Positions 1-55,414 of a stretch of DNA of 64,000 nucleotides are shown piece after piece. The first letter of the stretch is position 1. Every line of letters starts with the position of its first letter. Below the pieces are notes generated by a model, which had not been told where the DNA came from, ran no database searches, and saw only the letters and a list, made by a program, of their open reading frames with translations. The DNA comes from Bugula neritina (lineage: Eukaryota > Bryozoa > Gymnolaemata > Cheilostomatida > Bugulidae): positions 35,229,504 through 35,293,503 of the forward strand of contig OZ037765.1 of NCBI GenBank assembly GCA_964035545.1, given 5' to 3'. Made by a program: the position numbers and the translations under genes.

Positions 1-22
1 CCCTCGCAACCGAAAAGCACAG

Positions 23-664
23 GTGCATCCCCAACTCCATGCACATGAGGTGTCGTCTCAAGAGACGAACCGCTCAATGAGCGCTCAGCCATATGGAAGC
101 AGCTATTTCCTCCCGGGCAAACTTGCTGGCAAAGCTGTCACATTCCTGTTGGATACTGGGTGCACCACCAACCTACTGAGTCGGCGTCTATTCGACACTC
201 TCAGTGCCAGGGACAGGGCTAGCCTAGAACCATATGAAGGGGAGCACGGCACGTTGGCGGACGGGTCGTGTATTCCTTTCTATGGGGTAATCCAGTTGAC
301 TGGTAGAGTCCGTGATCAGACGACCAGTGAGACCTTCATCGTCAGTCAACTCAAGGAGGACGCCATCTTGGGCATGCCATTTCTGAAGCGACACAGGTGC
401 TACATCGAATTTAACAAGTCGGCGGTGGTGATGGCCGGGCGTGAGCCGGCCTGTGTCGACCAATTTGGCCGACCTTTGGTGGGGGGAGTGCAGGTGGTAG
501 AGCGTTGTACTGTACCTGGGCGCTCCCGGGCTACAGTTCGCTGCAGAGTGAACTGTAGGGAAATCTCCGAGTTAGGAGTGGTGGAAGGTGCACTGGGGGG
601 CGTCCAGCTCACTAACAGTCTGAATAGGCTAGATGAGCGGGGGAGTTCCTGGTCCAGTGCGTAA
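23..664 (+). CDS. gypsy aspartic protease region of pol (element A)
   Basis: An open frame of 213 codons whose central part is a retropepsin-like domain. The active-site motif LLDTGCTTNLLS sits at residues 42-53 (catalytic DTG at 152-160). The flap and second half follow, with an ILGMPFLKRHRCYIEF motif around residues 114-129. In Ty3/gypsy elements this enzyme cuts the Gag-Pol precursor. The frame stops at 664 and the RT linker continues in another frame from 688, so pol is already broken here by a frameshift. The first ATG is probably not the true start, because pol is normally made as a fusion with Gag. Confidence 0.88.
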   Translation: MHPQLHAHEVSSQETNRSMSAQPYGSSYFLPGKLAGKAVTFLLDTGCTTNLLSRRLFDTLSARDRASLEPYEGEHGTLADGSCIPFYGVIQLTGRVRDQTTSETFIVSQLKEDAILGMPFLKRHRCYIEFNKSAVVMAGREPACVDQFGRPLVGGVQVVERCTVPGRSRATVRCRVNCREISELGVVEGALGGVQLTNSLNRLDERGSSWSSA

Positions 665-687
665 ATCCTTTCACGGAGCCGGTAGAA

Positions 688-1220
688 TTGCCGGCTGGGT
701 CTCTAGTGGGGAAGTTCCACTCCGTGCAGGAGGAGGATGTAGGGCCCGCGCTGGAGACGGCGGACGAAACCCATGGGGTACCCACTAGAGCCAGCAGGGG
801 GCCGGTGCCTGAACACGTAGCGGAGTTGTACAAGGATGCCTGTGATGGCTGTGAGAGCAAGCGAGAACGCCTGGTGATGGCCCGGCTACTCTCTGAGTAC
901 AAGGACGTGTTCAGTTGCGGCGACCATGACATGGGTCTGACTAAGACTGTCTGTCATGAGATACCCCTGGCGGCGGGGACGGCGCCCATTCGACAGCCGA
1001 CCCGCCGGTTAGGTCCTGAAAAAAGGAGAGAGAAGTGAACCGTCATTTGCATGACTTTCTGAACCGAGACCTGATTGAGCCAGGCCATGGGGCCTGGAGT
1101 TCTCCAGTCGTCCTGGTTCGGAAAAAGGATGGTAGCTGGAGGTTTTGCGTTGATTATCTCTTATGTACCCAGGCGCACCCACAGAAAGAGGAAGGGTACT
1201 GGCAATGCGCCCCGAGATGA
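688..1220 (+). pseudogene. gypsy pol linker and N-terminal reverse transcriptase stub (element A)
   Basis: Two overlapping frames (688-1038 and 1035-1220) give the protease-RT linker and the RT fingers, with the motif WSSPVVLVRKKDGSWRFCVD. Homology to element B stops just after the FCVDY motif, near 1157. Beyond that point the sequence is unrelated and the frame closes. A frameshift lies in the stretch of As near 1020. The RT palm with its YLDD motif is absent, so no active polymerase can be made. Confidence 0.85.
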
Positions 1221-1256
1221 CATTGGCCCTGACTAGTCCCTACTAGCAGACATCAA

Positions 1257-1363
1257 GAAACTACAGCGGCGTATGGCTCGCCTCAGTAAAGAACAGAAGC
1301 GAGCGGCTCCTGAACTGGCTAAGTTGCAAACACGACTGGAGAGACGACTGGCCAAAGAGTGAC
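1257..1363 (+). other. short charged reading frame in the 3' part of gypsy element A
   Basis: A short open frame rich in Arg, Lys, Glu, Leu and Ala reads MARLSKEQKRAAPELAK and onward to a TGA at 1361-1363. Its composition suggests a basic coiled coil. It sits between the deletion joint and the LTR and has no counterpart in element B at the matching place. It could be the end of an extra 3' ORF of this subfamily or chance; I cannot assign a function. Confidence 0.3.
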
Positions 1364-1599
1364 AGAGGAGCGGTTTCCCCCCATTGAGACTGTGTGTCGC
1401 GATGGTAATAGATAGGCGTTACTGATTATGCGTAGTAGAGACTCGATTATTCTACGTATACTGTTCTGTATTATATATTTTTTTTCCAGTTTTTTTGTTA
1501 TCTCTAGCTTTGTAAAACCCTATGTTAGTTCCAATCTTTTTATTTTTGTTATCATATCAGCGTTAACCATAGAGTGTACCTTTCGATAGGTGTGGCGAG

Positions 1600-2014
1600 T
1601 GTAATGGATTTCAGTGGCGCAATTAATTGTTAGTTATTATATCGAAAGGGTCGACTCTATATTGTATATTATTGTGGAGATCGACTGCATCGACCTCCAG
1701 CGACTTGTATCTATGGTCGACAGTGGCACCACTAATAACAGCCAATCAGGACTGACATGCTAATTGGTAGCAGGTGGAGCTAGCTACTCGTAGTGGAAGC
1801 GCGCTGAGTAGCTAGCCGGGCAGAGCAGCTTGGGACTTCGCTTAGAGTAGTTGTGTGTAAAGTCTCACTTATTATGTAATCCTTCAATTCATGTTAGCAG
1901 TAATTCAATTCTTGTATCTTGTAAATAATAAACTTATCATAACGTAAATAACCTGGTGTATTAGCTTTGTTTAAGTCGACCCACATAACATAGTGAATTG
2001 TGAAATTCACTACA
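1600..2014 (+). repeat. 3' LTR of gypsy element A
   Basis: Starts TGTAATGGAT and ends TTCACTACA, 415 bp. It is homologous throughout to the LTR at 34134-34548 (opposite strand), which fixes both ends. It is preceded by the same short sequence (GGTGTGGCGAG) that precedes the 3' LTR of element B, probably the weak polypurine primer site. An AATAAA-like stretch lies near 1926. Confidence 0.9.
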
Positions 2015-2379
2015 ATATATGAAATTAATTTAAGCTAATTATATGCAGCCTTTAATGAGATAAAATACAAAAATGTAAAATTATTATTGTTATTATTATT
2101 ATTGTTGTTATTTTAACGTCATGAAAAACTTGATCTTTAATTTGTCTTCAAATAAAACAGTTGAGTTTGATTTATTAAATTATATCTTGTAATATTGTAA
2201 TGGATTTGTCCTCTCATGTATTCATGTATTTTAGTTACCTGTTATAGTTATTATCTTTTACAATTATAAAACTTATATTAAATAGTATTTGTGTTACCTT
2301 TGTTTTTTTTCTGTTTATATTTGTTATTTTTGTTTTGAGTTTGCGCAAAGGTCAACTTCCAGCCTGCGCAAAGCGGGAA

Positions 2380-2590
2380 TTAGTTGAGAATTGAGTTATA
2401 ATTTTAGTTAGAGTTGAGAATTGAGAGTAATTTTAGTTAGAGTTGAGAATGGAGTTATAATTTTAGTTAGAGTTGAGAATGGAGTAGCAATTTTAGTTAG
2501 CGTTGGAATGGCGTAGTAGTAGGAAACGAGTTATAATTTGAGTAGTAGTTAGAATGGAGTAATAGTTAGAATGGAGTTAGTTAACCGTGG
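2380..2590. repeat. imperfect minisatellite, about 31-bp unit
   Basis: Repeats of a unit close to TTTTAGTTAGAGTTGAGAAT plus a variable GAGTTATAA part, decaying into shorter TTAGAATGGAGTAA pieces at the right. The flanking stretch from 2015 to about 2380 is AT-rich with ATT microsatellite tracts and shows no gene. Confidence 0.75.
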
Positions 2591-3381
2591 TCGTGTTTTC
2601 AATTATCGAATAAAATATTCATAAACGTATACAAGTAAGTTCTGTTTAATATAATAATAACAGACAGTGGTAAAGTGATTACGATGGCTAACATTACATT
2701 CTAATGCATTCTAATGAGTTAACTCACCCCCTAAGACTACTACTGCTGAATGCCAGGTCTGTCAAAGGCAAATCCCCAGAATTGACATCTCTTGCTATGA
2801 ATTACGATATAGTGTGTGTCACTGAAACCCATGTTGATGAGAGTGTCACTGATAAACAATTCCTGGATCTCTCTCAGAAGACTGTCTTTCGATGTGATAG
2901 GAACCTTCACGGTGGTGGTGTAATGATTGCCATTGACAATAAACTGAGTGTTTAACATGTAGAAGTCGGATCAGCAGACCTGGAAATAGTTGTCCTAAGA
3001 CTAGATGATAATACTATTATTGGGTGTTTCTATAGACCCAACATTGCACACAGTCTCTCTCAATTTTGGCTTCTCCTCGAAGAAATTTCTAGCAAATATC
3101 CTACCGATCGAATAATCATAACTGGTGATTTCAATCTTCCCAATGTTGATTGGAAATATACCTAACTAAAAAAAAACTGCCAATATCAAGCCCTTCACCG
3201 AGAGTTTCTCAATTTAATTGCTGAAAATAACCTGACTCAACTCATTGACCAACCTACTCACATCCAGGGTAATGCTTTAGATCTCATTCTCACAAATCAA
3301 CCCAAAGACATTCAATCAATCAATATTGTTGAACCTGGCTTAAGTGACCACTTTCTTATTGAGGCTTCTATACAACATAGA

Positions 3382-4218
3382 GTGGCTACTACTAGTGTCA
3401 CATCTCAATTGAAATACATTAAACTATACCGCCAAGCTAATATTGAGGGTTTCCGAGAACAAATGTCTCATGTACAACTTCAGCTGGAAGAAATGAGTGA
3501 TGTCGATAGCATGTGGCCGCTGTTTGTCTCCCAACTTAGAACCTCAATCTCTAACCACGTCCCTATAAGAATATGCAAACCAAAAGGTGATCAACCTGCA
3601 TGGTTCAATCTTAGAGCGAAGAAGCTAGTCCAGAAACAACGTGAAACGTATAACAAATTTAAACAAACAAATTACCCTTTTTTTCTGACAAAATACAAAC
3701 AACAAAGACGTGACACTAAACGCACTCTGAGAGAACTAAGGAACAACTATACCACTGAAGTAGTATGCGGACCATTGGAAGCTGGAAACAGCAAACCCTT
3801 CTTTAAATATCTGAAGAATATTCAGAACAAAACAAAACCCATGCTGACACTTACTCACCCTAATGGTACTTCCACAACTGATCCTCGAGAAAATGCTGAG
3901 ATGCTCAATAATTTTTTTCAGCAACAGTTCTGCCAGCAAGATTTCTACACCGACGACCTCCCTTATCACTCTGATGATCTGAATGTGACTCCCGATGGGG
4001 TGGAAAAGCTTCTGAACGATCTCAAAACTGGTAAGGCACCTGGTCCGGACGGACTTAACAAAGAGGATCTCTGCATCGATACTAGATTGATAGCCAACTG
4101 CCTAACACTAATCTTTAACGCATCCTTGCGCAGTGCCAAACTTCCTGCGGGATGGAAGCTAGCCAACATCATCCCTGTCCACAAGAAAAGCCAGCTAGAT
4201 ATGCCAAACAACTATTGA
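3382..4218 (+). pseudogene. LINE ORF2 middle part: after endonuclease to start of RT
   Basis: 278 codons open between the endonuclease end and a TGA at 4216. It covers the linker and the RT N-terminal motif KTGKAPGPDGLNKEDL with WKLANIIPVHKK. The stop falls inside the conserved NYRPISL-type motif, which reads NNY then stop then PISL. Otherwise the frame continues unchanged into the next segment, so the damage is a point mutation rather than a rearrangement. Confidence 0.88.
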
Positions 4219-4263
4219 CCAATATCATTAACCAGTATACCTTGCAAGTTACTGGAACACATT

Positions 4264-5130
4264 GTGCTACACTATCTCAATAAACTGTTAGATCCCATCC
4301 TCCATAATCGTCAACATGGTTTCCGTCGTGGCTTGTCCTGCGAAACACAGCTTTGTGGAACCATCCATGAAATTGCCAGGTCAATGAACAACTCTCACAC
4401 CACTCATGCTCTTGTTCTCGACTTCCAGAAGGCCTTCGACAAAGTCCCCCACAAGCTACTCATACATAAGTTAAGCGTCGTTGATGGAAATAATCCTCAC
4501 ATACTCCGATGGCTCCATAATTTTTTGACAAAGCGAGAGCAGCAAGTAATCATAGATGGCCACTCTTCTTGTAGATTACCAGTCTTTTCTGGCGTTCCAC
4601 AGGGCTCTGTCCTGGGGCCCACCCTATTCCTTCTTTACATCAATGATCTCCCTGATCTACTAAGTTGCAGTGTCAGTTTATTTGCTGATGACACACTGAT
4701 TTTTCAAGAGGTAGACTCCCTAGATGATGTCCGAAAATTCCAAAAGAATATTGAACAGATTGAGAATTGGTCTCTGAAGTGGAAGATGCCGTTCAACTCC
4801 TCAAAATGCCGAATCATGTCATTTGGCAAAGATCCCCAAATTCAACCATCATATCGACTAGGGGGAGAAACATTGCCCTACGTAGATGAGATTACCTACC
4901 TTGGAGTTACACTACAATCTAACCTCAAGTTTCACAGCCACATAACTAAGAAAATAAACAAAGCATACAAGGTTCTTGGCATGCTAAAGCTATCCCTCTA
5001 TGGAGCTCCCAAGAAAGCAAAGCTGCTGGCATATATGACTCTCTGCAGACCTATACTAGAATACGCTGCAACCACTTGGGATCCTGTAACAAAGCAACTT
5101 GTGAAAGAAATTGAGTTAGTCCATAACTGA
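4264..5130 (+). pseudogene. LINE reverse transcriptase core
   Basis: 288 codons with the RT palm intact: VLDFQKAFDKVPHK, the GVPQGSVLG motif, LLYINDLP, and the catalytic FADD near residue 139. The thumb-like segment ends with CRPILEYAATTWDP. A TGA at 5128 interrupts the conserved RxIRFI motif, and the frame resumes to 5448. No poly(A) is seen after 5448, only about 95 bp of AT-rich 3' sequence before the LTR-like block at 5544. Confidence 0.9.
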
Positions 5131-5543
5131 GCTATTAGATTCATCTGCTGTCTCAAAGGCCGGGAGGCTAGCATCAGTGATGCAAGACAACAACTCAACA
5201 TATCATCACTGGAAGATCGTCGCAAAAGCCTACGAATAACCCTCCTTTTGAAGATCTTGTCCAAAGAAGAATGTCATCAGGCATTATCTTCCAGCTACAC
5301 TGAACTGACAAGGGACAAGTCAACCGCTACGGTTACCACGAGGGCTGCCTCTAACGGAATACCAACTGCGATATCTGCCATGTGCACAGCATATCATAAC
5401 AGCTTCCTACCGCGCACTATTAGAGACCTAAGAATTGGAACTCCCTAAATACTTGATAAATGATAACCTGAAAGGTACTACAATTACCAAATTTAAAATG
5501 CATAATGTATGCAAATACAGTTATAATTCTATGTCAAATGTAT

Positions 5544-6250: not shown

Positions 6251-8101
6251 TTTACAGTATCTGAAGAATCTGGAGTTTCTGAATATCGACAAAAACAATG
6301 ATCTAGCCACTCCCCCTTATGAAGTGTGTAGACAAGGATTGTCAGCTATCAGGCAGTACTACAGAGATTTTGCTAAAGGTAAAGGTGAAAGTCTTCCACT
6401 AGTCACCATTGCAGTGATTGGTAACACAATGGCAGGGAAGACAAGTCTCATCAGAACCTTGCAGAGTGAAGAGAGAAAGAGAGTGCTGACAAAACGTGGA
6501 CCTGAGGCTGTTGTTGATGAAACAACTAAAGTCTTTAAAGTTGAAGAGTTGAAAGTAAATAACACGGTTCTGAGACTAATTGACATGGGAGGACAACCAG
6601 TGTACCACATGACTTACCAGTTAACACTTAAACAGAACTGCATCCCGATAGTAGTGGTGAACATGAAGCAGTATGATCAGCTGGCACAGGAGAAGGGAGA
6701 CAGAGAGGCTGTGAGAAGACTGGCTTTTGATTGGCTAGCTCATTTATACGTAGCAAATCCTGACATTGGACCACCAAAACTTGTATTTACTCACAAAGAC
6801 AAGTTTGATGAGGAGAATTTCACAAGGATGACAACTGCTTTCACCAGCACAGCTGATCTACTGAAAGATGAAATAATCAGAGAAGAGAAAAAACTTGACC
6901 AATGCATAGCGAAGATAGAGCACTTCCATCAACACAGAGAGCTGTTCTTGCTAGAAGATATCTACTCAGTTGGAAAAGAAGATAATTATCAAACATACGA
7001 AGTCATGAAAACTGCCATTTTTGATTCAGCTCAAAATTTTGTGAAAGTGCTGCCAAAGCTATGGGAAGATGTGAATAAGAAAGTTTTAGGATTACAGACA
7101 GCATTCAGTACATTTGATGAGATACTTCGTACAGTGCAGCAAGTAGATAGAAGTATCACACCTGATCAGCTCGCCATAATCCTCACCTACATGCATGATT
7201 GTGGTAAAGTCTTATGGTACAAGGATATTAAAGAGTTGAAGCTGATTATTTTTCAAAAAATTGAAGAAGTTACTAAACTACTCACAATCTTGTTTCATCA
7301 TGATGAAGATGTGTGGCAGACTCGGCAAACAAGTTTCAAACCACTGCTTCTAACTAACGGAGCTTTTCTTGAGGAAGAACAGCTCCATCAACTTACAGAG
7401 GATTTCCGGTCCTCAGGTATTCTAGACAATCAACTTTTAGAATATCTGATTCGAACAGAGACAGCATTTTTTGATAAAGATAAAAGTCAATTTGCTGTCA
7501 CTTTGCTGCAGAAATTTAGCATTATCTACGGACCAGTTGATCTGGAGTCAAAAAGCTATTTCATTGTTCCCTTCCACTCCCCTGATTACCTAGAGAACAC
7601 TCTCAATACTGATCAAGACATTATTCTCCATGCTGAGATCATTTTCAAAGGTCTCTCAATCCCACAATATGTTTACCAACAGATGAGTGTAGTTGTCCTA
7701 CGAATGTTCCCAAATGAGACAAGTTTTCCCCTCGTTAAAAAAAACGGTGTGAAGGTTTATCACGATGATGTCTCAGTGTGCCTTGTCCATGACGGCCTCT
7801 CAAGGAAGGCAGAAGTTACAGTGTCTGGAGCAGCAGAGAAAATCACAGATTGTTGGAAACATATTGTCATGGTTACCAGAAAGATTTCTAAAGAAGTCCA
7901 AAGTTCATGGCCTGCCAGCAGAATGGTTCACAAGTCTAGTTGTACACACTGCATACTGAAAGGTGAATCTGGTCCTAAGATTCAGGTAACTCCCAGTTGG
8001 TGTCTTGACTTTCAAACTGAGAAACCCTTTCAACGGTTTCAGAAGGAGATGGTGACAGTTCGCTGTGGGGAACATAAGATCCTAAGCCCATTCATGCACC
8101 C
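6251..8101 (+). CDS. gene 1: last LRR, Roc GTPase and COR-like exon of a Roco-family protein
   Basis: A large exon of about 617 codons. It opens with the end of a leucine-rich repeat (QYLKNLEFLNIDKNN). The Roc (Ras-of-complex) GTPase follows: P-loop GNTMAGKTSL at 6420-6449, switch motif DMGGQP at 6582-6599, and base-recognition THKD at 6789-6800. A COR-like dimerisation region comes next, with LTYMHDCGKVLWY near 7190. Roco proteins are GTP-operated switches that dimerise through COR; MFHAS1 and LRRK2 are relatives. I chose acceptor 6250 (ATTACAG) rather than 6257, because it enters in phase 2 like the LRR exons at 39-58 kb. Donor GTGTAAGT at 8102 gives a frame that stays open through all following exons; GTAAGT two bases later would create a stop. 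All GTPase motifs look intact. Upstream LRR exons are not in the window. Confidence 0.92.
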
Positions 8102-8285
8102 GTGTAAGTTTGTGTTGTGATAGTTTTTGAGATATAATTTGTTATAAAAATATCAATAACATTAACATGATAGTCTATTTTTTCAAACATTAAGCATAAA
8201 TTTACTATTTAATTAAAGTGCTTTAAGCTTTTCACTTAAATCAGCAGATTAGATATTAAATTCTAACAGTATTTTGCACCCTTAG

Positions 8286-8449
8286 AAATCCACTTGCCCT
8301 CTATCCTTTTGGCACACATGTTCAGTTCAGAAATGTACTGTGGGATTTAGGTAATCGTTTGAATGAGTCTGAAACCAAGGATATAGAAAGAAGCGTTCAC
8401 AAGATAAAAAAAGAGAGAAAGGATTTGGAAATGCCCAAAAACAAGCCTG
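8286..8449 (+). CDS. gene 1: exon joining COR to the linker
   Basis: Acceptor CCCTTAG and donor GTAATG; enters in phase 2 and leaves in phase 1, matching both neighbours. The peptide includes FRNVLWDLGNRLNESETKDI and a lysine-rich helix (KIKKERKDLEMPK). The first part could be a worn death-effector-type helical fold, but the match is weak and I would not name it. The second half has a counterpart in the duplicated cassette at 16127-16216, which shows that the duplication included this exon. Confidence 0.7.
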
Positions 8450-8572
8450 GTAATGTATCATACGTCTAAAACTGAAAAAACTCAGTTTTCATGCTGGGCT
8501 CATATAACTAATTAATCGAAATGTCAATATTCGCATTATTGATTATTAACGCATTTATAGACTTGTTTACAG

Positions 8573-8745
8573 CATCAACTACATCAAGTCAGCCCATTGA
8601 GGAACATGAAGAAAGTGATTTGTCTGATGATGATGACTATCTGCTGCCTGAAACTGATGCTGACAGAAAGAAACTTTATCTTCACCAGACACCTGCTCCT
8701 ACAACTAAACAGAAAGTTAGAGACCTATTCTCACACTCTGATAAA
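8573..8745 (+). CDS. gene 1: acidic linker exon before the caspase
   Basis: 58 codons (phase 1 in, phase 0 out; donor GTGAGT) rich in Ser, Asp and Glu: EESDLSDDDDYLLPETDADR, then PAPTTKQKVRDLFSHSDK. The LPETD-A sequence resembles the (I/L)ETD sites cut by initiator caspases, so it is a plausible point for releasing the caspase from the Roco part; that is inference. The same exon, diverged, is present in the duplicate at about 16499-16671, with SDLSDDDEY conserved but the ETD site not conserved. Confidence 0.78.
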
Positions 8746-8878
8746 GTGAGTTTTATTTAAACAACACAACCAGTTTAAGTCACTTTTTCAAAAAATGAAT
8801 CCCGAATTGCTTGTTGGCTTGAGGTCTGAGAGTGTGAAAGCTAACATATGTTGGTTCATTTTTGTTCGCAACATCCAG

Positions 8879-9043
8879 GTGTTTCCAATGACCAGGAAAA
8901 GAGGCAGAGCTCTGATTATCAACAATAAAAAAGTGAAAGCTCATCTAGATAGACATGGCTCTGATGTAGATGTTAAAAATTTAGAAGATTTGCTGGAATC
9001 TTTTCAGTTTGATGTTGTTACCAAGACAGACCTCTCTGCTCAG
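8879..9043 (+). CDS. gene 1: caspase p20, first exon
   Basis: 165 nt, phase 0 on both sides, after acceptor ATCCAG. It encodes the first beta strand RGRALIINNKK and the motif DRHGSDVDVKNLEDLL, which aligns with the SRSGTDVD motif of animal caspases. The Arg of this motif (codon 8951-8953) is the one that binds the substrate aspartate in caspase-3 (Arg64). Its presence argues for a true caspase with Asp specificity rather than a metacaspase or paracaspase. The exon has the same length in the duplicate at 16878-17042. Confidence 0.9.
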
Positions 9044-9437
9044 GTGTTGACACATTGTGTTTTATGAATAAGTGATGATATAGTTAAATATACTATCATC
9101 TGTTGTTATTGGTTGCAGCAAATTTAATTTTATATATGCCCTGGTCTAAGCACAAACAAAGATATACTCATTAGCTGATTAGAAATCTGAATAATGAGTG
9201 CTCTGTTTGGCTGTGTATTATGTTGTTTATAGAAACAATTGAAATTAAGCCCGAACCAAGTTACCCAACTATCTAATAGAAATAAATATAATGAAATAGA
9301 AAATGATAACTTCAAATTAAACATTTTATAAATATTGAAATTTACTGAATGCAGACTAATGAAAATATTTTGTTGATTAAACTTTTTCCACAAAGTAGAC
9401 TGACAAAGTTTTCACATGATACTAAATGTAACTACAG

Positions 9438-9657
9438 GAGATGTGGGAAACAGTGAAGGGAGAAGTGAATGGTGTGAGGAATGCTGATCATGGAATGTTC
9501 TTCCTGTTTATTGGTTCTCATGGAGTTGAGAGTCATGTCTATGGATCAGATGGAAAGTTGGTGAAACTGATAGACCTGTATGACCTGCTGTCTGTTCCTC
9601 AGAACCCAGTGATTGCTGATAAACCTAAGCTGGTTGTCATCCAAGCTTGTAGTGGTG
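9438..9657 (+). CDS. gene 1: caspase p20, catalytic His and Cys exon
   Basis: 220 nt (phase 0 in, phase 1 out; donor GTGAGT). It holds both catalytic residues: His in LFIGSHGVES (codon 9519-9521) and Cys in KLVVIQACSGG (codon 9648-9650). The usual QACRG pentapeptide is QACSG here, a change seen at the fourth position only. Between them, SDGKLVKLIDLYDLLSVPQN matches the caspase helix before the last strand. Both residues are kept, so the enzyme is predicted to be active. Confidence 0.92.
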
Positions 9658-9817
9658 GTGAGTATCTATTGAGTTGATGTTTTATTTATTTGAAATTTAG
9701 CCACAGAGAATGCATATTTTTGACTGTTATTATTCTGACTGTTTCCTAATAATAGATGCTTCAATCTTCAAACTAGCAATAGTCACATGGTAAACAATGT
9801 TATTCCATGGTAAACAG

Positions 9818-10015
9818 GTAGAAAAGATTTGGGTAAAAAAGGATACAAAGATGTAGAGACAGGAGAAGACAATGAATTTGGTGATGAAGATGAGAGTGTG
9901 ACTCAACCAGAAGTATTCACTCCTCCAAAGTACGTCTCTGGTGGATACTATAAAGGAGATGGAATTGAGAGACTTCACTGTGAAAACCTGTTTATTATAA
10001 ATGCCAGCTTTGATT
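9818..10015 (+). CDS. gene 1: inter-subunit linker and start of caspase p10
   Basis: 66 codons, phase 1 on both sides. The peptide has an acidic stretch (TGEDNEFGDEDESVTQPEVF) in the place where caspases are cut between p20 and p10, followed by ENLFIINASFD, the first p10 strand. The acidic stretch has several Asp residues that could serve as processing sites. The duplicate at 18937-19056 keeps ENLYILKASF but has lost most of the acidic part. Confidence 0.85.
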
Positions 10016-10326
10016 GTGAGTGTCTTAACTGTTCTTCAAAAGTAGTCTTTGGCAAATTATATGAGTTAGATGCTGGTTTACTTTGATACAGTAATAAATT
10101 GTAGAGCAGAATTTAAAAAATCTTTTTAAGTATGATTACTGCATAGCATGACTCTATTTCCCCTTACAGTATTTCATTCCATCAGCTTGTATTTATTTGA
10201 TGACAGTGTAAACGTCTTAAAATCTTCATATGCTGATACCCTATACCATTAAGCATTGTTCATATGTCACATACTGTATATAAATATATACTGATGTAAT
10301 ATATTATAGTATTCACTTTGTTATAG

Positions 10327-10436
10327 CCTATGTGTCCATGAGATCTAATATCTATGGTTCTCTACTAGTCAGATGTCTGGTCAGAACGCTCTACCGTCAT
10401 GCCTGTCACAGAGACATGTACGAGATCTACAAAGCT
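10327..10436 (+). CDS. gene 1: caspase p10 exon with substrate-binding Arg
   Basis: 110 nt (phase 1 in, phase 0 out). SYVSMRSNIYGSLLVRCLV aligns with the caspase p10 motif around S-W-R...GSWF. The Arg (codon 10341-10343) corresponds to caspase-3 Arg207, which holds the P1 aspartate, and GSLLV replaces GSWFI. A helix with TLYRHACHRDMYEIYKA follows. Donor GTAAGC. Confidence 0.88.
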
Positions 10437-10780
10437 GTAAGCCTAACTATATACCAATTCCACAGGCTATTGTCTTCTAATGCTCTTCCTTTTATTGAGT
10501 TTGTAATACCTCATTAGCTGAAACTGAGTTGAATTACTATCTATACTCACTCAAACAGAAACATGGAACATAAAATATTGGGCTTTTACCAATAGATTTA
10601 AAACCTACATTTTCTCAGCAAAAATTCTAAGAAATATTTTCTAACTGTTTGATCATTCTGCCATCTAATTTTTCTGTGAAGTATTTGCATATAACTTTTA
10701 ACCAGCTATATAAGGCTATAGGATGTGTGAGGCTTGAAATACCAACACGTGAAAATTTATAAATAGAGTTCAGGTTCTGT

Positions 10781-11341
10781 ATACGAGATACTGTTAGAAC
10801 ATGTTACATATTCTATATACTAGATACTGTTAGAGTATGTTACATATTATATATACTAGATACTGTTAGATTATGTTACATATTCTATATACTATATACT
10901 GTTAGATTATGTTACATATTCTATATACTAGATACTGTTAGAACACGTTACATATTATATATACTAGATACTGTTAGAGTATGTTACATATTATATATAC
11001 TAGATACTGTTAGAGTATGTTACATATTCTATATACTAGATACTGTTAGAGTATGTTACATATTCTATATACTAGATACTGTTAGAGTATGTTACATATT
11101 CTATATACTAGATACTGTTAGATTATGTTACATATTCTATATACTATATACTGTTAGAGTATGTTACATATTATATATACTAGATACTGTTAGAGTATGT
11201 TACATATTATATATACTAGATACTGTTAGAGTATGTTACATATTCTATATACTATATACTGTTAGATTATGTTACATATTCTATATACTAGATACTGTTA
11301 GAGTATGTTACATATTATATATACTAGATACTGTTAGAACA
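10781..11341. repeat. 36-bp minisatellite, about 16 copies, inside the last caspase intron
   Basis: Unit close to AGATACTGTTAGAGTATGTT plus ACATATTCTATATACT, repeated about 16 times with single-base variants (GAGT/GATT/GAAC; ATTC/ATTA). It ends within about 10 bp of the acceptor of the last exon at 11350, so the pyrimidine tract and branch point must lie in or beside the repeat. Confidence 0.92.
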
Positions 11342-11349
11342 TATTTCAG

Positions 11350-11586
11350 GTTCAACACAGAATCAGTGAGTACTGTAAGAGAAAGAAGGACATTCTAACT
11401 GGACAGCTGGTAGTTGCTAGTGACACTCTCTCTCATGGAAGGAAACTCTACCTGTTTCCTGGATACAACGGAGTTTCTGGTACAGATATCCATCAGGGAG
11501 CTACTCAGATAGAAGGAGAGAATAAACCAGAGTCAGTTGGCTCTACCATGTTATATAGAAAACGGAATTCATGTTCTATAATATAA
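11350..11586 (+). CDS. gene 1: last exon, caspase p10 C-terminus
   Basis: 79 codons including a TAA at 11584-11586, phase 0 start after acceptor TTTCAG. VQHRISEYCKRKKDIL and SDTLSHGRKLYLFPGY match the end of caspase p10, where the DTL...LYLFP strand closes the fold. A short Ser/Gly-rich tail follows. A possible AATAAA lies at 12223-12228, so the 3' UTR could be about 640 bp; alternatively transcription runs on into the duplicated cassette. Confidence 0.88.
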   Translation, partial: VQHRISEYCKRKKDILTGQLVVASDTLSHGRKLYLFPGYNGVSGTDIHQGATQIEGENKPESVGSTMLYRKRNSCSII

Positions 11587-16216: not shown

Positions 16217-16498
16217 GTAGACTTCAGGCTTTTTAGAATAGCTAGTATATATCTCTCCTTTAGCATTTTGATGTATAAGAAAATGAACATAATATGTCAA
16301 GTTTATTGCTCCGCCATAATAATTTTTTTTATGCAACAGTCAAAACTCGTACAAGATTGTCAATGCAAGAAATGTGATAATGAGAATTACAGAAAGTACA
16401 AAATTCTGCATTTATATACCTACGCTATCAATATATTACATTACTGACAGAGTATGTTAATATTCACAATACAGAGACTGTCAAATAACATCAGCAAA

Positions 16499-16671
16499 CT
16501 GCCACCACCTCTTCTGTGGAAGATGAGTCGAGTGATCTCTCTGATGATGATGAATATATGGTACCTTCACCATCTGCTGTTGGCAGATTGAAACATCTCA
16601 AACAAGTTCCTGTTCCTACAACTAGACAAGATATAATAGACCTCTTTCCAAACACTAACAAGATGATGTAA
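16499..16671 (+). pseudogene. duplicate cassette: acidic linker exon
   Basis: The frame reads TTSSVEDESSDLSDDDEYMV and later PVPTTRQDIIDLFPN, clearly the sister of 8573-8745. The acceptor corresponding to the parent is displaced by one base in phase, and the donor is mutated (AAC AAG ATG ATG TAA), so normal joining to the next exon is not possible without a cryptic site. Confidence 0.75.
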
Positions 16672-16877
16672 CAGTATCTTATTATAGCAATTAATGATGT
16701 TTCTTACCAAGCTGACCTTTTAAAAGTATTTGGTGTAGACAGATTTTTCATTGCCTTGTGTTTTGACTTTTATATTAAATTTTGAGGCTTTTTCGTCTAT
16801 GTTACTGTTCCTAAAAATTATGTCATGAGATTTATACAGTTAGAGGAATAATACTCTCAATAATTTGTTTCTACCAG

Positions 16878-17042
16878 GTGTTTCGTGTGACAAAGCCGAG
16901 GGGAACTGCTTTGATAATCAATAACAAGAAAATAAACAATCAAAAGGAAAGATTGGGTTCTGAAATAGATGTTGAAAATCTCACAGATATGCTCTAATTA
17001 TTTCAGTTCAATGTCAAGTCAGAAAAAGATCTTACCGCTAAG
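16878..17042 (+). pseudogene. duplicate cassette: caspase p20 first exon with stop codon
   Basis: 165 nt like its parent. RGTALIINNKK and KERLGSEIDVENLTDML are conserved, including the P1-binding Arg, but codon 40 is TAA (16995-16997) where the parent has GAA. One base change explains it (G to T). Donor GTAACA is kept. Confidence 0.88.
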
Positions 17043-18615
17043 GTAACAGTACAATATATCTATTTCTTATATCTAAACTTGTCTCACTGACAAACTTTTT
17101 ACACAGCTGCAGCCTAGACTACATGCAAAACAGCTACTTGAAGACACATAGTTGCATTTGGTGCAGCCTGCAACCTGCACTGTGCACTGACTTGTCAAAA
17201 CGCCTAGCTTGTGCAGTGAGTGACTTAAAACCAGGTTGGAACAGTTGCACAGCGACTGTTGAGTTTGGCAATACCAGCCATTGCACCAGCTCTGCAGCTA
17301 GTAGTTGAAGTGACTGTGCAGAGTAAAAAAATAAAAGAAGCAGGAAGGCAGCAATAGGATAACGTGGCACAAGGGCACCAGATGTTTAGAACCAGTGGGC
17401 CATGTAATATTTGTTGTAAGCTAGCATCGCTGAGATAGAAACTGGGTGGCGTCACTGCGATATGTGCACACACCAGTGGTAGTACCTTATGGTATATGAA
17501 AAATTGTTGTTGATCATACGGCCTTAGTACTGGTGACGCTTTCACTGAGTTTCTGATTTATCATGCTGCCGTCAACTGTTGTTATGATCATTATGGTGTT
17601 GACCAATAGCTGAAAATTCGGATCAAGTTCTATAGATGTGGCATGAAAAACAGCAACCACTATCAAAAAAGGCAGCAGGCGTGCAAAATAATTACTGCAG
17701 ACAATGAGAGGTATAGTGACAAGCAGTATCAATGGAGCGCATTTTTTGTTGCTGCATTTAGAATAAGCACATTTCAATACCTTTGATGACTGTCCACTTG
17801 AGGGTAAACCTGGTGCCAGCAATATATATCTACATACTTCCATTAAACATCAGAAGGAGAGAGTAGATGGCTCTACTGATCGTACTTTCCCAACCGAGCC
17901 AGGAGCAGAAGGCATACCTAATTTGTATTTTTCCAAGTGAACGTCTCATCTCTGTGTGTTCACTTTTAAGGAAATTGTAACTGCTTAGAGAAAAAATAAG
18001 ATTAGCTAGATATGATGAAACATGGGCTCTTGATGTTCAGAGAGCTAGGTAGATAATGATCAACAGGTACGGCCGTGGGTATTAGCACTCAGATAAGCAA
18101 GGCAGTCCACTGAACTTCAAACATGATAGGGATTGGAGATTGCATTTTTTATGTGCTTGAAGAATTTCTTGCATTAACGAGTCATCAGTCTGCAAAAAAT
18201 CCTTCTCTTTCAGTAGAGTGGTTTAAAAAGTTTAAAAAATGGCCATTACAGTGCGGCAACTGGAAAATGAACTTAATTGCTTTTATGTTCAATTGCCATA
18301 ATTATTGCTCGCATACAATTTTCATTAAAGCACAAAAGTATTTTTTATCAAATTTTGTTGGCTTGGAAAATTCAATATCTCCCAAACCTTTTTATTGTGG
18401 CTTCAGCAGATACATTCCATGTTTATAATATTCTGTATTGCGTTCTCCTAACTTGTTAACCGGTTTAGTCAAAAATAAAAAGCATAAAACTGAACATTGC
18501 ATTTATTATAGTGATAAACTTTAGTTAATATTTCTACGTGAAAGTCAGCATTCCTATAAGATCATCATTTTGCATTTACCTGTCAGAATGCTGTTTTTTC
18601 TTTTAAAACCAACAG
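17043..18615. other. long intron of the duplicate cassette
   Basis: The matching intron in gene 1 is only 394 bp, so about 1.2 kb has been added. From about 17100 to 17960 the sequence is less AT-rich than its surroundings, which suggests an old inserted element. I find no coding motif or clear terminal repeats in it. Confidence 0.45.
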
Positions 18616-18832
18616 GAAATATATGAAACAATTGAGAGAGAAGTAAATGATATTAGAAATGATCATGGAATGTTCTTCCTGTTTATTGGTTCCCATGGAG
18701 CTGAAGAATATGTCTGTGGATCAGATGGAGAGTTGGTAGAACTGGCAGGCGTCTATAACTTGCTGTCTGTTCCTCGAAAGAAAGAGATTCAGGATAAGCC
18801 TAAATTGGTCCTTATACAAGCGTGTAGCAATA
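18616..18832 (+). pseudogene. duplicate cassette: catalytic His/Cys exon
   Basis: HGMFFLFIGSHGAEEYVCGS and KLVLIQACSN keep both catalytic residues (His codon 18694-18696, Cys codon 18823-18825). Acceptor CAACAG and donor GTGAGT are intact, and the phase pattern equals that of 9438-9657. This exon shows no damage of its own. Confidence 0.85.
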
Positions 18833-18936
18833 GTGAGTGGCAACCTTAATATTTCTTTTATATTAACAAATGAAAATAGAAATCATTTGATCTGAGCATT
18901 ACAAGATAATAATAAAAATGCTATCTATTGATTTAG

Positions 18937-19056
18937 GGATACTTAAAGACAAAAAATATGCTGCACATAGAGTTTTACGTGCTGATGTTGGTAACGGAGC
19001 TGAATTAGAGAAAAATCATGGTGAAAATTTGTATATTTTAAAAGCCAGCTTCCCGT
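18937..19056 (+). pseudogene. duplicate cassette: inter-subunit exon
   Basis: 120 nt against 198 in the parent; phase 1 in and out. ENLYILKASF matches the p10 start, but the acidic processing segment is reduced to a short mixed stretch (RADVGNGAELEKNHG). Confidence 0.75.
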
Positions 19057-19238
19057 GTAAGGATACACCTAATTTTTTGAATTACAATGAAAATGTTCTG
19101 TGTGCATGGATATGTTTTTATGAAATATAAAAATAATGTTTCAGTGTATATATGTGATTATTAGCTTATATCTTTTAACATTAGCTTCCGGTCATAAGAG
19201 TTCAGCATTGTATGTTATCTAGCATATCCTTCTTTCAG

Positions 19239-19332
19239 ATATCTTGGCCGTGGTTCTCTACTAGTCAGATGTTTTGTCAGAACCATGTACCGACATGCCT
19301 GTCACAGAGATATGCATGAGATCTACAAAGCT
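19239..19332 (+). pseudogene. duplicate cassette: p10 exon, frame lost
   Basis: LGRGSLLVRCFVRTMYRHAC and HRDMHEIYKA match 10327-10436, but read in the phase imposed by the previous exon the sequence hits TAG. The region of the substrate-binding Arg has been replaced by a shorter sequence. Donor GTGAGT is conserved. Confidence 0.8.
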
Positions 19333-19675
19333 GTGAGTTTGTTGAATTAATTATTAGGTCAACCCATTTAATGAATATACACTGTATAGTGTCTTTCAAC
19401 AGTGATAATAATTTGTACCTCTCATGCACCTCCTTCGTTATAATAATCTGGGTGGCTGGTGATAAAATGAGTAGCAATGACAACAAATTATAACCAGTTA
19501 CAGCAAAAACTTGTACAGCTAGCAAACTTGTGTATTGGCTTGAGGCAAAACGTTAGTTTTTGCAAACTCAAAACTACATTTGAATGCCAGATGAATAACC
19601 ATGTTAACACGTTCATTTAAACATTTGGTAAAATTCACATTTCTTTGAAATCACATATGCATTATACTAATGTAG

Positions 19676-21625
19676 GTACAAGGCCGGATTAAAAAGTTCT
19701 GTGCAAAAACTAATCGCGATGTTGGGCAACTAGTACATGCTACAGACACCCTGACACACCATAGAAAGCTTTACCTGTTTCCAGGATATGATGGGGGTTC
19801 TGATAGAGAGGAGCTGAGTTTACTTCAACTCAGCAAGAGATTTCAATATCCTCCATCCAAACAACTTCTGTCAAGTTCAGCTGCACAGTCCACACTGTCA
19901 GAGACAGCCAGCACCTCACAGCAAGCAGAGACAGCCAGCACCTCACAGCAAGCAAAGACAGCCAGTACCTCACAGCAAGCAGAGACAGCCAGCACCTTAC
20001 AGCAAGCAGAGACATCCAGTACCTCACAGCAAGCAGAGACAGCCAGAACCTTACAGCAAGCAGAGACAGCCAGCACCTCACAGCAAGCAGAGACAGCCAG
20101 CACCTTACAGCAAGCAGAGACAGCCAGCACCTTACAGCAAGCAGAGAGAGCCAGTACCTCACAGCAAGCAGAGACAGCCAGCACCTCACAGCAAGCAGAG
20201 ACAGCCAGCACCTTACAGCAAGCAGAGACAGCCAGCACCTCACAGCAAGCAGAGACAGCCAGCACCTCACAGCAAGTAGAGACAGCCAGTACCTCACAGC
20301 AAGCAGAGACAGCCAGAACCTTACAGCAAGCAGTGACAGCCATCACCTCACAGCAAGCAGAGACAGCCAGTACCTCACAGCAAGCAGAGACATCCAGTAC
20401 CTCACAGCAAGCAGAGACAGCCAGAACCTTACAGCAAGCAGAGACAGCCAGCACCTCACAGCAAGCAGAGACAGCCAGTACCTCACAGCAAGCAGAGACA
20501 GCCAGAACCTTACAGCAAGCAGAGACAGCCATCACCTCACAGCAAGCAGAGACAGCCAGTACCTCACAGCAAGTAGAGACAGCCAGAACCTTACAGCAAG
20601 CAGAGAGAGCCAGTACCTCACAGCAAGCAGAGACAGCCAGCACCTCACAGCAAGCAGAGACAGCCAGCACCTTACAGCAAGCAGAGACAGCCAGCACCTC
20701 ACAGCAAGCAGAGACAGCCAGCACCTCACAGCAAGTAGAGACAGCCAGTACCTCACAGCAAGCAGAGACAGCCAGAACCTTACAGCAAGCAGTGACAGCC
20801 ATCACCTCACAGCAAGCAGAGACAGCCAGCACCTCACAGCAAGCAGAGACAGCCAGCACCTCACAGCAAGTAGAGACAGCCAGTACCTCACAGCAAGCAG
20901 AGACAGCCAGAACCTTACAGCAAGCAGTGACAGCCATCACCTCACAGCAAGCAGAAACAGCCAGCACCTCACAGCAAGCAGAGACAGCCAGTACCTCACA
21001 GCAAGTAGAGACAGCCAGTACCTCACAGCAAGTAGAGACAGCCAGCACCTCACAGCAAGCAGAGACAGCCAGCACCTCACAGCAAGTAGAGACAGCCAGC
21101 ACCTCACAGCAAGTAGAGACAGCCAGCACCTCACAGCAAGTAGAGACAGCCAGCACCTCACAGCAAGCAGAGACAGCCAGCACCTCACAGCAAGTAGAGA
21201 CAGCCAGCACCTCACAGCAAGTAGAGACAGCCAGCACCTCACAGCAAGCAGAGACAGCCAGTACCTCACAGCAAGCAGAGACAGCCAGCACCTCACAGCA
21301 AGCAGAGACAGCCAGCACCTCACAGCAAGTAGAGACAGTCAGCACCTCACAGCAAGCAGAGACAGCCAGTACCTCACAGCAAGTAGAGACAGCCAGCACC
21401 TCACAGCAAGCAGAGACAGTCAGCACCTCACAGCAAGCAGAGACAGCCAGCACCTCACAGCAAGTAGAGACAGCCAGCACCTCACAGCAAGCAGAGTCAG
21501 CCAGCACCTCACAGCAAGTAGAGACAGCCAGCACCTCACAGCAAGCAGAGACATCCATCACTTTCCAGCAAATAAAGATAAAACGCAAGCGCAAATCAAA
21601 AAGGAAGTTTTGTAAACAACAGTGA
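19676..21625 (+). pseudogene. duplicate cassette: last exon, p10 end fused to 61 x 9-residue repeats and a basic tail
   Basis: 650 codons including the stop, open throughout from acceptor TGTAG. It starts with the p10 end (VQGRIKKFCAKTNR, TDTLTHHRKLYLFPGY), continues about 30 residues, then runs in frame through a Ser/Thr/Gln-rich repeat with consensus ETASTSQQA from 19901 to about 21573. It ends with the very basic IKIKRKRKSKRKFCKQQ, which looks like a nuclear-targeting cluster. AATAAA lies at 21738-21743, 113 bp after the stop. Because the unit is 27 bp and contains no stop in several frames, openness of the repeat by itself is not evidence of coding. Upstream damage means the normal frame would not reach it. 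Confidence 0.7.
19901..21573. repeat. 27-bp minisatellite, 61 full units plus one degenerate unit
   Basis: Unit GAGACAGCCAGCACCTCACA + GCAAGCA, exactly 27 bp with no length variants over 61 units ((21548-19901)/27 = 61). Variants are single substitutions at a few fixed sites (GCA/GTA, TCA/TTA, AGC/AGA/AGT). A variant block with GTGACAGCCATC recurs at 20333, 20792 and 20927, which are 17 and then 5 units apart, showing higher-order duplication. Confidence 0.97.
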
Positions 21626-21743
21626 AGATAGCACTGAAATTATAAAACACAAAAGAGTTGATTCACTAAAAATACAGACCTCATAAAAGCATTTGAGTAT
21701 TTAATTTAGTATGGATTTTAATTTCTGCATGGCTCAAAATAAA

Positions 21744-26449: not shown

Positions 26450-26678
26450 GGGAATACAGAGTCTGGTTCAGACACTCCGGAGAGGATCCACCTGATGACA
26501 AATGGTATCGAAGTGACACAAGAAAACAGACCATAGAGGGTATAAAGGAAAAGGTTAAAGGTCACACAATCACCCACATGATAGTAGATGGAAATCTACC
26601 AGATAATATTCATCTACTGGCTCCAGAGTTGAGTCACCTGATCGTGAAGAATGTGAAATCTGTCTCTAACCTGTCTGT
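26450..26678 (+). CDS. gene 2: N-terminal domain exon leading into the LRRs
   Basis: Acceptor ATTATAG, donor GTAAGT; phase 1 in, phase 2 out. It is open for 76 codons: GEYRVWFRHSGEDPPDDKWY, a basic middle, then THMIVDGNLPDNIHLLAPEL and SHLIVKNVKSVSNLSV. The last part has the spacing of an irregular LRR cap, and joined to 39601 it continues naturally into ANLKNLETLNI. I do not recognise the first 40 residues as a named domain. No signal peptide or membrane segment is visible, which fits a cytoplasmic protein. Confidence 0.75.
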
Positions 26679-39600: not shown

Positions 39601-39741
39601 AATGGCTAATCTGAAGAATCTGGAGACTCTTAATATATCATGGAATAACTTCAGTGAAGGATTACCTGATGTATTCACATCAATGACATATCTAAGAGAG
39701 TTGGGTATTAGTGGCTGTAAACTACCAACTCTACCTGAGAG
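39601..39741 (+). CDS. gene 2: LRR exon 1 (two leucine-rich repeats)
   Basis: 141 nt, phase 2 in and out, acceptor TTTACTATAG, donor GAGAG|GTTAGT. Encodes ANLKNLETLNISWNNFSEG, then LPDVFTSMTYLRELGISGCK and LPTLPE: two repeats of 24 and 23 residues. LRRs of this kind form a curved beta sheet for ligand binding. It joins the exon at 26450 in frame. The exposed strand residues differ from those of the other copies. Confidence 0.88.
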
Positions 39742-51108: not shown

Positions 51109-51249
51109 CATGTCTAACCTGGAGAATCTGGAAACTCTTAATATATCAGGGAATAACTTCAGTGAAGGATTACCTGATGTATTCACATCAATGACATCTC
51201 TAAGAGAGTTGCTTATGTATAACTGTGAACTACCAACTCTACCTGAGAG
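51109..51249 (+). CDS. gene 2: LRR exon 2
   Basis: 141 nt, phase 2/2. SNLENLETLNISGNNFSEGL then MTSLRELLMYNCELPTLPE. Identical splice contexts to LRR exon 1. The second strand (ELLMYNCE) is the most different of the seven copies. Confidence 0.88.
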
Positions 51250-52399
51250 GTTAGTAAATGCAAGCACCCTCCTAGTGTTTTGCCTCCATGTTTATAGACA
51301 TGCACCTCCTGTTGCTATGTACTGTTAAAATTATTGCAAATTTGTTATTCTGTATTTAAAGTTGACCAAAAATATAAAATTTACCTACCTGTATGTTTTG
51401 AGACTTACATTTTTTTGCTAAATAATCTGTGAAAATCTCTCAAATCTGTTGAATGTTTGCTTATATGATGTATACAATATGCAGATAAATATATGCTAAT
51501 AAAGAGATGCTATGTAATATTATGACATGTGGTTATATGAAATAAATAAGACATGTTCCAATATTTTAATTTCCTACTTAATGCTTGAATTAAGTAGAAG
51601 TTATAGTAAGCTGAGTTTATTAGACTTTTCTTGAAGAATAAATTAAGATGAAACTTTACTATACATGTCATCTTGCAGACTAAAACAAGGCGCTGATCTA
51701 ACAATATAATACAAAAGTGATATAATTGATAATTAAATAAATCATACCGTCTTTTATTATACTATAAACAATGTTTAACTTTATTTTAATGCTTTATATT
51801 ACTTTTTAAATTTAAGGGTAAAAAAAAACAAATACTCTTAGCAAATGACCTGTAATCATGGAAAATATAAGCTAATGAAGATATGCTACGTAATGCTATA
51901 ACGCCAATAATCTAATTTCCTATAATGCTTGAATTACGTAAAAATTACAGTAATAGCTGAGTTTATTAGAATTTTCTTGAAAAATAAAACGCTGAAGCCT
52001 TATTATGTAATATCCTGCAGACTAAAATCAGGCTTTCAATATAATGTATAGTTGATTAGGTGTTATAAATAATTATTAATTTAAATTTGAAGTTTGAAAC
52101 AGAAATGAAATATTTTAGCAAATTACCTGTAAGTATGACAAATATTATTATATATATGAATAAAATGCTAGTTGTATATTTTGTACTCAGCTTAAGGTTT
52201 TCAAAATAAAGACTCATGCAGTATATTTCACATGTATATGTGAGATTCATATCTACTGATGTCTTTTATTCCAACTTTATACTCCATTAGATGAAATTTA
52301 TTATATATCAATGAGAAACTTTATGCTAGAATTATATTTCTATTCCTTTAGATGGTTGTATTACTATATGATGTCTCAACTAGTATATGTTTACTATAG

Positions 52400-52540
52400 C
52401 ATGTCTAATCTGAAGAATCTGGAGACTCTTAATATGTTAGGGAATAACTTCAGTGAAGGATTACCTGATGTAGTCACATCAATGACATCTCTAAGGAAGT
52501 TGTATATTAGTGGCTGTAGACTACCAACTCTACCTGAAAG
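52400..52540 (+). CDS. gene 2: LRR exon 3
   Basis: 141 nt, phase 2/2. NLETLNMLGNNFSEGLPDVV then SLRKLYISGCRLPTLPE. The donor is GAAAG|GTTAGT (one change from the others, still a good site). Confidence 0.88.
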
Positions 52541-53412: not shown

Positions 53413-53553
53413 CATGTCTAATCTGAAGAATCTGGAGACTCTTAATATGCCATGGAATAACTTCAGTAAAGGATTACCTGATGTAGTCACATCAATGACA
53501 TCTCTAAGACAGTTGGATATTAGTCACTGTAACCTACCAACTCTACCTGAGAG
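53413..53553 (+). CDS. gene 2: LRR exon 4
   Basis: 141 nt, phase 2/2. NLETLNMPWNNFSKGLPDVV then SLRQLDISHCNLPTLPE. Followed by the first fold-back element 469 bp downstream. Confidence 0.88.
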
Positions 53554-55174: not shown

Positions 55175-55273
55175 ATACATCAATGGGAAACTTTATGCTA
55201 GAATTATACTTCCATTGCTTCAGATGGTTGTATTACTATACATGATGTCTCAACTAGTATATGTTTACTGTAG

Positions 55274-55414
55274 CATGTCTAATCTGAAGAATCTGGAGAC
55301 TCTTGATGTGTCAGAGAATAACTTCAATGAAGGATTACCTGATTTAGTCACATCAATGACATCTCTAAGGAAGTTGAATATAAAGAGATGTGAACTACCA
55401 ACTCTACCTGAGAG
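55274..55414 (+). CDS. gene 2: LRR exon 5
   Basis: 141 nt, phase 2/2. NLETLDVSENNFNEGLPDLV then SLRKLNIKRCELPTLPE. The acceptor is ACTGTAG rather than ACTATAG. Confidence 0.88.

Follow-up and report, generated by a model that had tools for sequence, protein, structure and literature searches.

In NLR inflammasomes and in the Apaf-1/CED-4 apoptosome, a sensor and a nucleotide switch, a STAND NTPase, control a caspase output, and the caspase is a separate protein joined via CARD or death domains. Past COR, the proteins LRRK1/LRRK2, MFHAS1 and CtRoco carry other domains or none, and are not known to carry a caspase. Brown-algal leucine-rich repeat (LRR)-ROC-COR proteins are candidate immune receptors with many copies, duplicated phase-2 LRR exons and diversifying selection on the concave face (PMC11378527); the amphioxus hybrids "LRRs-caspase" and "TNFR-caspase" join a recognition domain straight to a caspase as an adaptor-free shortcut (PMC2575513); and caspase proteins of prokaryotic conflict systems are fused to many domains, including STAND NTPases (PMC7159879). 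Here we analyzed a stretch of 64,000 nucleotides from chromosome 1 of the bryozoan Bugula neritina (assembly GCA_964035545.1, contig OZ037765.1, positions 35,229,504 to 35,293,503, forward strand; hereafter the window), and in particular the locus at window positions 6251-11586. With a probability of roughly 0.72, we read this locus as a member of an expanded Roco gene family, known to date only from bryozoans, that encodes a single-chain LRR-Roc-COR-linker-caspase receptor.

Gene Model and Domain Architecture

Eight exons, separated by introns that are all GT-AG, join as one open frame of 1017 codons plus a stop, and the 3′ end of the gene lies about 0.4 Mb short of the chromosome 1 terminus. 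The exons, in window coordinates, are as follows.

6251..8103, forward strand: exon 1, end of the last LRR, Roc GTPase and COR (splice model, Pfam and profile comparison)
8351..8449, forward strand: exon 2, predicted helix following COR, LNESETKDIERSVHKIKKER (revised acceptor)
8573..8745, forward strand: exon 3, acidic linker with an ESDLSD motif at 8611-8628 (splice model, residue table)
8879..9043, forward strand: exon 4, start of caspase p20 with pocket Arg at 8951-8953 (CED-3 alignment, residue table)
9438..9657, forward strand: exon 5, caspase p20 with catalytic His at 9519-9521 and Cys at 9648-9650 (CED-3 alignment, residue table)
9818..10015, forward strand: exon 6, caspase inter-subunit linker and start of p10 (splice model, paralog comparison)
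10327..10436, forward strand: exon 7, caspase p10 with pocket Arg at 10341-10343 (CED-3 alignment, residue table)
11350..11586, forward strand: exon 8, remainder of p10 and the C-terminal tail, closing with the stop codon TAA at 11584-11586 (splice model, paralog comparison)

An initial annotation of this DNA had described eight exons with consistent phases. The open frame and the GT-AG introns agree with it, the end of exon 1 at 8101 had to be corrected to 8103, and the stop between Roc-COR and caspase that it had named as a possible objection is absent from the 1017-codon frame. The exon 1/2 junction 8101/8286, whose frame is also open, was replaced by 8103|8351 because the latter has a GTAAGT donor and restores a Cys ("PC") that is nearly invariant across the family. 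In an alignment steered by the window protein, an equivalent of the "PC" junction could be fitted in 29 paralogous loci (L020-L048; 28 clear, L041 doubtful), and the chain extends to the caspase start in 25 of 30 loci, window included; in the remaining five (L028, L030, L034, L035 and L041) the caspase start lies outside the available flank or the alignment is poor. Stops that appear near exon 2 of L049 and L050 (the same loci as L021 and L022) under the 8101/8286 junction disappear under the revised one, L051 (L038) retains one stop there, and L026 has two within a poorly aligned stretch separating exons 2 and 3. A purpose-written spliced aligner recovered the first-model exons from the first-model protein. 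Exons 5 to 8 of the nearest paralog (L054) have the same lengths as those of the window gene, and its exon 4 is longer by 6 bases.

Using the first model of the protein (1038 amino acids, 21 residues too long between COR and linker), a Pfam scan found Roc (PF08477) at 29.3 bits against a cut-off of 27 (E 1.1e-6; 30.5 bits with exon 1 alone) and Peptidase_C14 (PF00656) at 115.5 bits against a cut-off of 21.4 (E 4e-33). In this domain search, which the initial annotation had suggested, Peptidase_C14 and Roc passed their cut-offs and COR-A did not. The presence of Roc and the absence of NACHT and NB-ARC from the same scan bear out the annotation's view that the GTPase differs from that of NLRs. 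Its assignment of Roc is further strengthened by three intact motifs, GNTMAGKTS (6420-6446), DMGGQ (6582-6596) and THKD (6789-6800), which we take to be G1, G3 and G4 of the GTPase. Among the 46 members of our family set A2, matches at E ≤ 0.001 were obtained for Roc in 45, for COR-A in 23 and for COR-B in 3, and one member has a weak NACHT match (2e-4). The presence of COR after Roc in the window protein is supported by profile comparison: the A2 profile aligned (hhalign, 99.8%, E 3.7e-30) to three unnamed metagenomic LRR-Roc-COR proteins over 510 columns running through LRR, Roc and COR, and all three partners carry COR-A, two of them also COR-B. When the Roc-COR exon of the 8101/8286 model was compared with the PDB, the best match was CtRoco (8.4e-10), spanning Roc and not COR, with LRRK2 Roc as a weak match (0.0094).

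The solved structures nearest to the C-terminus of the protein are caspases (7.9e-19). The Arg at 8951, His at 9519, Cys at 9648 and Arg at 10341 named in the initial annotation are at those positions and align with CED-3. We compiled the active-site residues of 21 sequences, comprising the window protein, five Bugula paralogs (read under the 8101/8286 model), 14 Watersipora models and the deposited Bugula model P0032. No substitution occurs at the His, the Cys or the first pocket Arg in the 20 sequences that cover each of these positions. Between the two halves of the protein, linker exons 2 and 3 retain both phase and sequence across paralogs and species. A linker motif, (S/G)[D/E]xSD, occurs in 19 of the 21 sequences, the exceptions being P0060 and L052, which ends in E, and the Watersipora counterpart of ESDLSD has the consensus ESDVSDxExEGYCDE. 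We take the motif to have the form of a caspase cleavage site, and self-cleavage there is therefore a guess; a phosphorylation site is as possible.

Co-Inheritance of Roc-COR and Caspase Exons across the Genome

We searched 295 contigs totaling 215.85 Mb; the report on the published tzBugNeri2.1 assembly gives 320 scaffolds and 216.0 Mb (PMC11480708). The genome has at least 97 Roc-COR exons, of which 71 came from a protein search (the best 71 of 123 candidates, 70 of them without a stop), 19 from a search with P0032 as the query and 7 from open frames of 450 amino acids or more with a Pfam match to Roc. There are at least 133 matches to caspase exon 5 (from 134 candidates), 131 without a stop. 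Within 3, 6, 10 and 20 kb, respectively, 82, 92, 94 and 97 of the 97 Roc-COR exons are followed by a same-strand caspase exon. Same-strand caspase exons upstream were found for only 0, 1 and 11 within 6, 10 and 20 kb, and none of the 97 has an opposite-strand caspase exon within 20 kb on either side. When the caspase exons were shifted by 50 kb to 1 Mb (500 trials, 10 kb distance), there were on average 2.9 pairs and never more than 15. Because 94 of 97 Roc-COR exons are paired, the two halves are not a chance juxtaposition. On chromosome 1, 32 of the 38 family loci fall within the final 3.1 Mb.

An exon-wise search, which split domains could escape, found no NB-ARC in the genome at E ≤ 0.001 and a single NACHT match at the same threshold. 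This near absence leaves room for the Roco-caspase family in that role.

N-Terminal Exon and LRR Cassettes

The gene probably extends upstream of the window. Its predicted N-terminal exon gave no result in a motif search and was located by tblastn with Watersipora N-termini, of which P0058 (2e-7), P0053 (1e-5) and P0054 (0.02) match it.

chr1 35,209,965-35,210,195, forward strand: N-terminal exon upstream of the window
chr1 35,221,744 to ~35,227,112, forward strand: nine LRR cassette exons upstream of the window, all nine intact (40 of 135 candidates scored)

Together with the LRR end in exon 1, the nine cassettes would make up the N-terminal LRRs of the window gene. Each cassette is a symmetric phase 2-2 exon of 138 bp, in whole codons, that encodes two LRRs. 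The 17 that we examined (nine upstream of the window gene, seven within the window and one in L021) are all intact, phase 2-2 and 138 bp long, and encode 17 distinct peptides. The LRR face shows a diversifying pattern: at ten positions predicted to lie on the concave beta-strand face, nonsynonymous diversity (piN) is 0.31 and synonymous diversity (piS) 0.07, a ratio of 4.3, as compared to 0.060, 0.048 and 1.25 at the remaining 36 codons. Of 20,000 random draws of ten codons, none was as extreme. The cassettes are mutually related, and these ratios describe a pattern and are not a formal likelihood test. Genome-wide, 148 of the 150 best-scoring cassettes (of 870 candidates) lack a stop. A Roc-COR exon lies within 50 kb downstream on the same strand for 135 of the 150 and on the opposite strand for none; for 51 of the 150 a same-strand Roc-COR exon lies within 50 kb upstream, reflecting clusters.

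Selection and Apparent Exchange of Modules

Both Roc-COR and the caspase are under purifying selection. Between the window gene and its nearest paralog, the ratio of nonsynonymous to synonymous substitution rates (dN/dS) is 0.31 in Roc-COR (dS 0.31) and 0.34 in the caspase half (364 codons, dS 0.20). A different picture emerges from other paralogs: relative to L049 (L021), dS is 0.30 in Roc-COR and 1.57 in the caspase, and identity to L049 and L050 is 81-83% in the Roc-COR halves and 48-50% in the caspase halves. The mismatch in dS implies that one half was exchanged or homogenised. The modules thus seem to recombine, with caspase halves apparently exchanged among paralogs.

Relatives in Other Species

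A search with the window protein (first model; about 8000 candidates scored) returned 52 matching proteins, mostly unnamed metagenomic Roc-COR pieces. Only two of them bear a caspase and both are bryozoan, namely P0030 of Watersipora subatra (31% identity over 96%) and P0032 of Bugula. Using residues 700-1176 of P0030 as the query (4458 candidates scored) yielded nine further Watersipora models, an unnamed 672-amino-acid LRR-COR protein (P0062) and six mammalian caspases with CARD, and among the matches of a search with profile A3 (about 8000 candidates scored) only Watersipora proteins carried a caspase domain. Given the limited number of candidates scored, absence outside Bryozoa is not proven. 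Five Watersipora models (P0030, P0053, P0054, P0055 and P0060) combine Pfam matches to LRR, Roc and caspase in a single chain; none of the five Roc matches reaches its cut-off. Along with others, P0030, P0053-P0061 and Bugula P0032 belong to the same family and have the same domain order, so that the architecture is conserved in two bryozoan families.

These deposited sequences bear names such as "uncharacterized", "MFHAS1 homolog", "caspase family" and caspase-8-like. The initial annotation knew of no earlier description of this architecture. We found no description of a Roco-caspase protein in the open-licence PMC literature, which agrees with that statement; the sequences themselves were already deposited for Watersipora and in the older Bugula model.

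Three further observations concern the deposited models. P0032 is 85-90% identical to its best loci in the assembly, which are on contig C7, and has no identical locus; this mismatch may come from a locus that is missing, from rapid evolution, or from a distinct lineage that carries the same name. In P0060 the caspase is followed by FN3 domains and the C-terminus is hydrophobic; the protein may sit in the membrane as a receptor, or the model may be a fusion of genes. The N-termini of P0053 (MGAKSS) and P0054 (MGCSLS) resemble what we take to be lipid-attachment signals, which would make membrane anchoring possible.

Interpretation and Alternatives

The single LRR-Roc-COR-caspase chain proposed in the initial annotation has gained support from the genome-wide co-inheritance of the two halves, the full-length Watersipora models, the upstream cassettes and N-terminal exon, and purifying selection. 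Most likely, these genes encode self-contained intracellular receptors in which the LRR would sense, Roc-COR would switch and the protein's own caspase would execute. We envisage that a ligand, most likely microbial, parasitic or from foreign colony tissue, would bind the variable LRR face and that binding would alter both the nucleotide state of Roc-COR and its self-association. The caspase domains of two chains would then be paired and activated by proximity, after which the protease might free itself by cutting the (S/G)[D/E]xSD linker and the p20/p10 boundary and trigger cell death or local signaling. A separate adaptor with a CARD or death domain would be unnecessary.

Several points weigh against this interpretation. 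The gene model was built from genomic sequence alone, the first coding exon with its start codon was not found among the exons predicted, and a Met in exon 4 (VFPMT) is a possible start of a separate caspase. COR-A scores 22.5-25.2 bits in the window protein (E 1.1e-4 at 22.5 bits), below the cut-off of 35.3, and COR-B (E 0.038) is also below its Pfam cut-off. For 39 of the 133 caspase exons, including a decayed copy within the window, the preceding 10 kb contain no listed Roc-COR exon; caspase exons without a detected Roc therefore exist. At the second pocket position, 13 of the 17 sequences that cover it have Arg, while two have Lys, one Ser and one Leu. With regard to LRR diversification, the exposed positions were set from the LRR consensus after the cassette alignment had been inspected, and in an ungapped comparison the 60-bp intron flanks are more divergent (median 0.37) than the cassette exons (0.10), so that only particular positions, and not the whole exon, evolve fast. 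The proposed role in immunity is argued from pattern.

The order of events in the switch could also be the reverse. Caspase initiators are generally activated via dimerisation. In this alternative, which we consider unlikely but worth keeping in view, a resting Roc-COR dimer would keep the caspases separated or closed until GTP makes it open and fall apart into monomers, thereby releasing them. For CtRoco, the best-studied Roco protein, two reports describe a dimer in the nucleotide-free and GDP-bound states and a monomer once GTP is bound (PMC5714945, PMC11052575), which favors such a scheme and means that a model of GTP-induced dimerisation and protease activation cannot be assumed. However, a freed monomer would require some other pairing device, and we prefer pairing by self-association because caspases activate as dimers.

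The family may instead do a different job, such as colony allorecognition, larval settlement or developmental remodelling (polypide regression), in place of pathogen sensing; we regard this too as an unlikely, though plausible, reading. Bryozoans are colonial, hypervariable receptors are also used in allorecognition, and the identity of the ligand is not indicated by the sequence data. Nothing decisive speaks against these roles, but the scarcity of NLR-type nucleotide-binding domains in the genome is in keeping with a function in immunity or cell death.

Decay of the window copy into a pseudogene, disrupted upstream by retroelements, is improbable. While the intron before exon 1 is full of retroelements, a decayed caspase copy lies 5 kb downstream and one of the five paralogs that we read (L052) is broken, the window gene has 1017 stop-free codons, all of its splice sites are intact, dN/dS relative to the nearest paralog is 0.31-0.34, and all nine upstream cassettes are intact. 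It is similarly improbable that the caspase is a scaffold without protease activity: the substitutions of the second pocket Arg (in 4 of 17 sequences) would be compatible with this, but the invariance of the His, Cys and first Arg, and the presence of all four residues in the window copy, argue for an enzyme. Least probable of these is an adjoining Roco gene and caspase gene co-duplicated many times, for which the purely genomic evidence, the 39 unpaired caspase exons and the Met in exon 4 leave some room, but which is at odds with the retention of linker exons 2 and 3 and with the Watersipora and older Bugula models that unite both halves.

Returning to a single-chain receptor, we tentatively suggest, with somewhat less than even confidence, a broader scenario in which bryozoans largely swapped NLR inflammasomes and the apoptosome for one-chain Roco-caspase receptors, of which Bugula would have about a hundred. 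The LRR faces would have been diversified by cassette turnover, perhaps with alternative splicing, caspase halves would have been exchanged, and the whole would represent a separate animal invention. If this is true, a Roco GTPase can serve, within a single polypeptide, as the basis for sensor-switch-caspase logic of the inflammasome type, and nature provides a fusion in which protease activity could report Roco switching. The Roc-COR module is common to LRRK2, the Parkinson's disease protein. The family is also a candidate immune or allorecognition repertoire for Bryozoa, of which none was found described in the open-licence PMC literature.

Other Features of the Window

The window also contains the following features.

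1..5448, forward strand: retroelement remnants, comprising an LTR (long terminal repeat) pol-like fragment and a LINE (long interspersed nuclear element) reverse transcriptase at 2692-5448 (translations judged by eye)
10775..11338, forward strand: 36-bp minisatellite, inside intron 7
16490..21627 (limits approximate), forward strand: decayed partial linker-caspase copy
26452..26658, forward strand: N-terminal exon that probably belongs to the next family member and shares 82.6% identity with its counterpart upstream of the window
39601..39741, forward strand: LRR cassette exon, probably of the next family member
51109..58292, forward strand: six more LRR cassettes, probably also of that member, starting at 51109, 52400, 53413, 55274, 56286 and 58152

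The remnants at 1..5448 sit in the large intron that separates exon 1 from the last LRR cassette (chr1 ~35,227,112). The decayed copy has no Roc-COR exon listed upstream, contains an in-frame stop in its equivalent of exon 4, and ends in about 60 copies of a 27-bp tandem repeat. The probable Roc-COR exon of the next member is at chr1 35,334,481, about 41 kb past the window, and that member would thus span some 83 kb. A similar satellite (GTAGACACACAGACAGA...) occurs at window positions 25305-26304 and at the start of L017, just 5′ of the two N-terminal exons in this cluster. Introns and intergenic DNA of the gene cluster also house LINE reverse transcriptases and LTR elements resembling Gypsy and copia, which were recognized by eye from translations at 30041-38462, 43114-48515, 59873-61096 and 2692-5448. 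No Rfam match was found in the window at gathering score.

Comparison with Known Systems

In comparison to NLR inflammasomes and the Apaf-1 apoptosome, the window protein has a Roc GTPase in place of the STAND NTPase and carries its caspase in the same chain; it may work like these systems and is not a member of them, having neither NACHT nor NB-ARC. The caspase resembles CED-3 and the initiator caspases in its p20/p10 organization with His, Cys and pocket Arg, and differs from them in that Roc-COR replaces the CARD or DED prodomain. The LRR-Roc-COR core is shared with LRRK1/LRRK2, MFHAS1 and CtRoco. The Bugula protein has Roc-COR between LRR and caspase, whereas no GTPase switch was found described at that place for the LRRs-caspase hybrids of amphioxus; the term "Roc" is absent from the main text of that report (PMC2575513). 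The brown-algal receptors (PMC11378527) come close in that they combine LRR-Roc-COR, multiple copies, tandem phase-2 LRR exons and diversification of the concave face. However, the algal cassette is 72 bp long and encodes one LRR whereas that of Bugula is 138 bp long and encodes two, and where the algal protein ends, at COR, the Bugula chain continues into a caspase.

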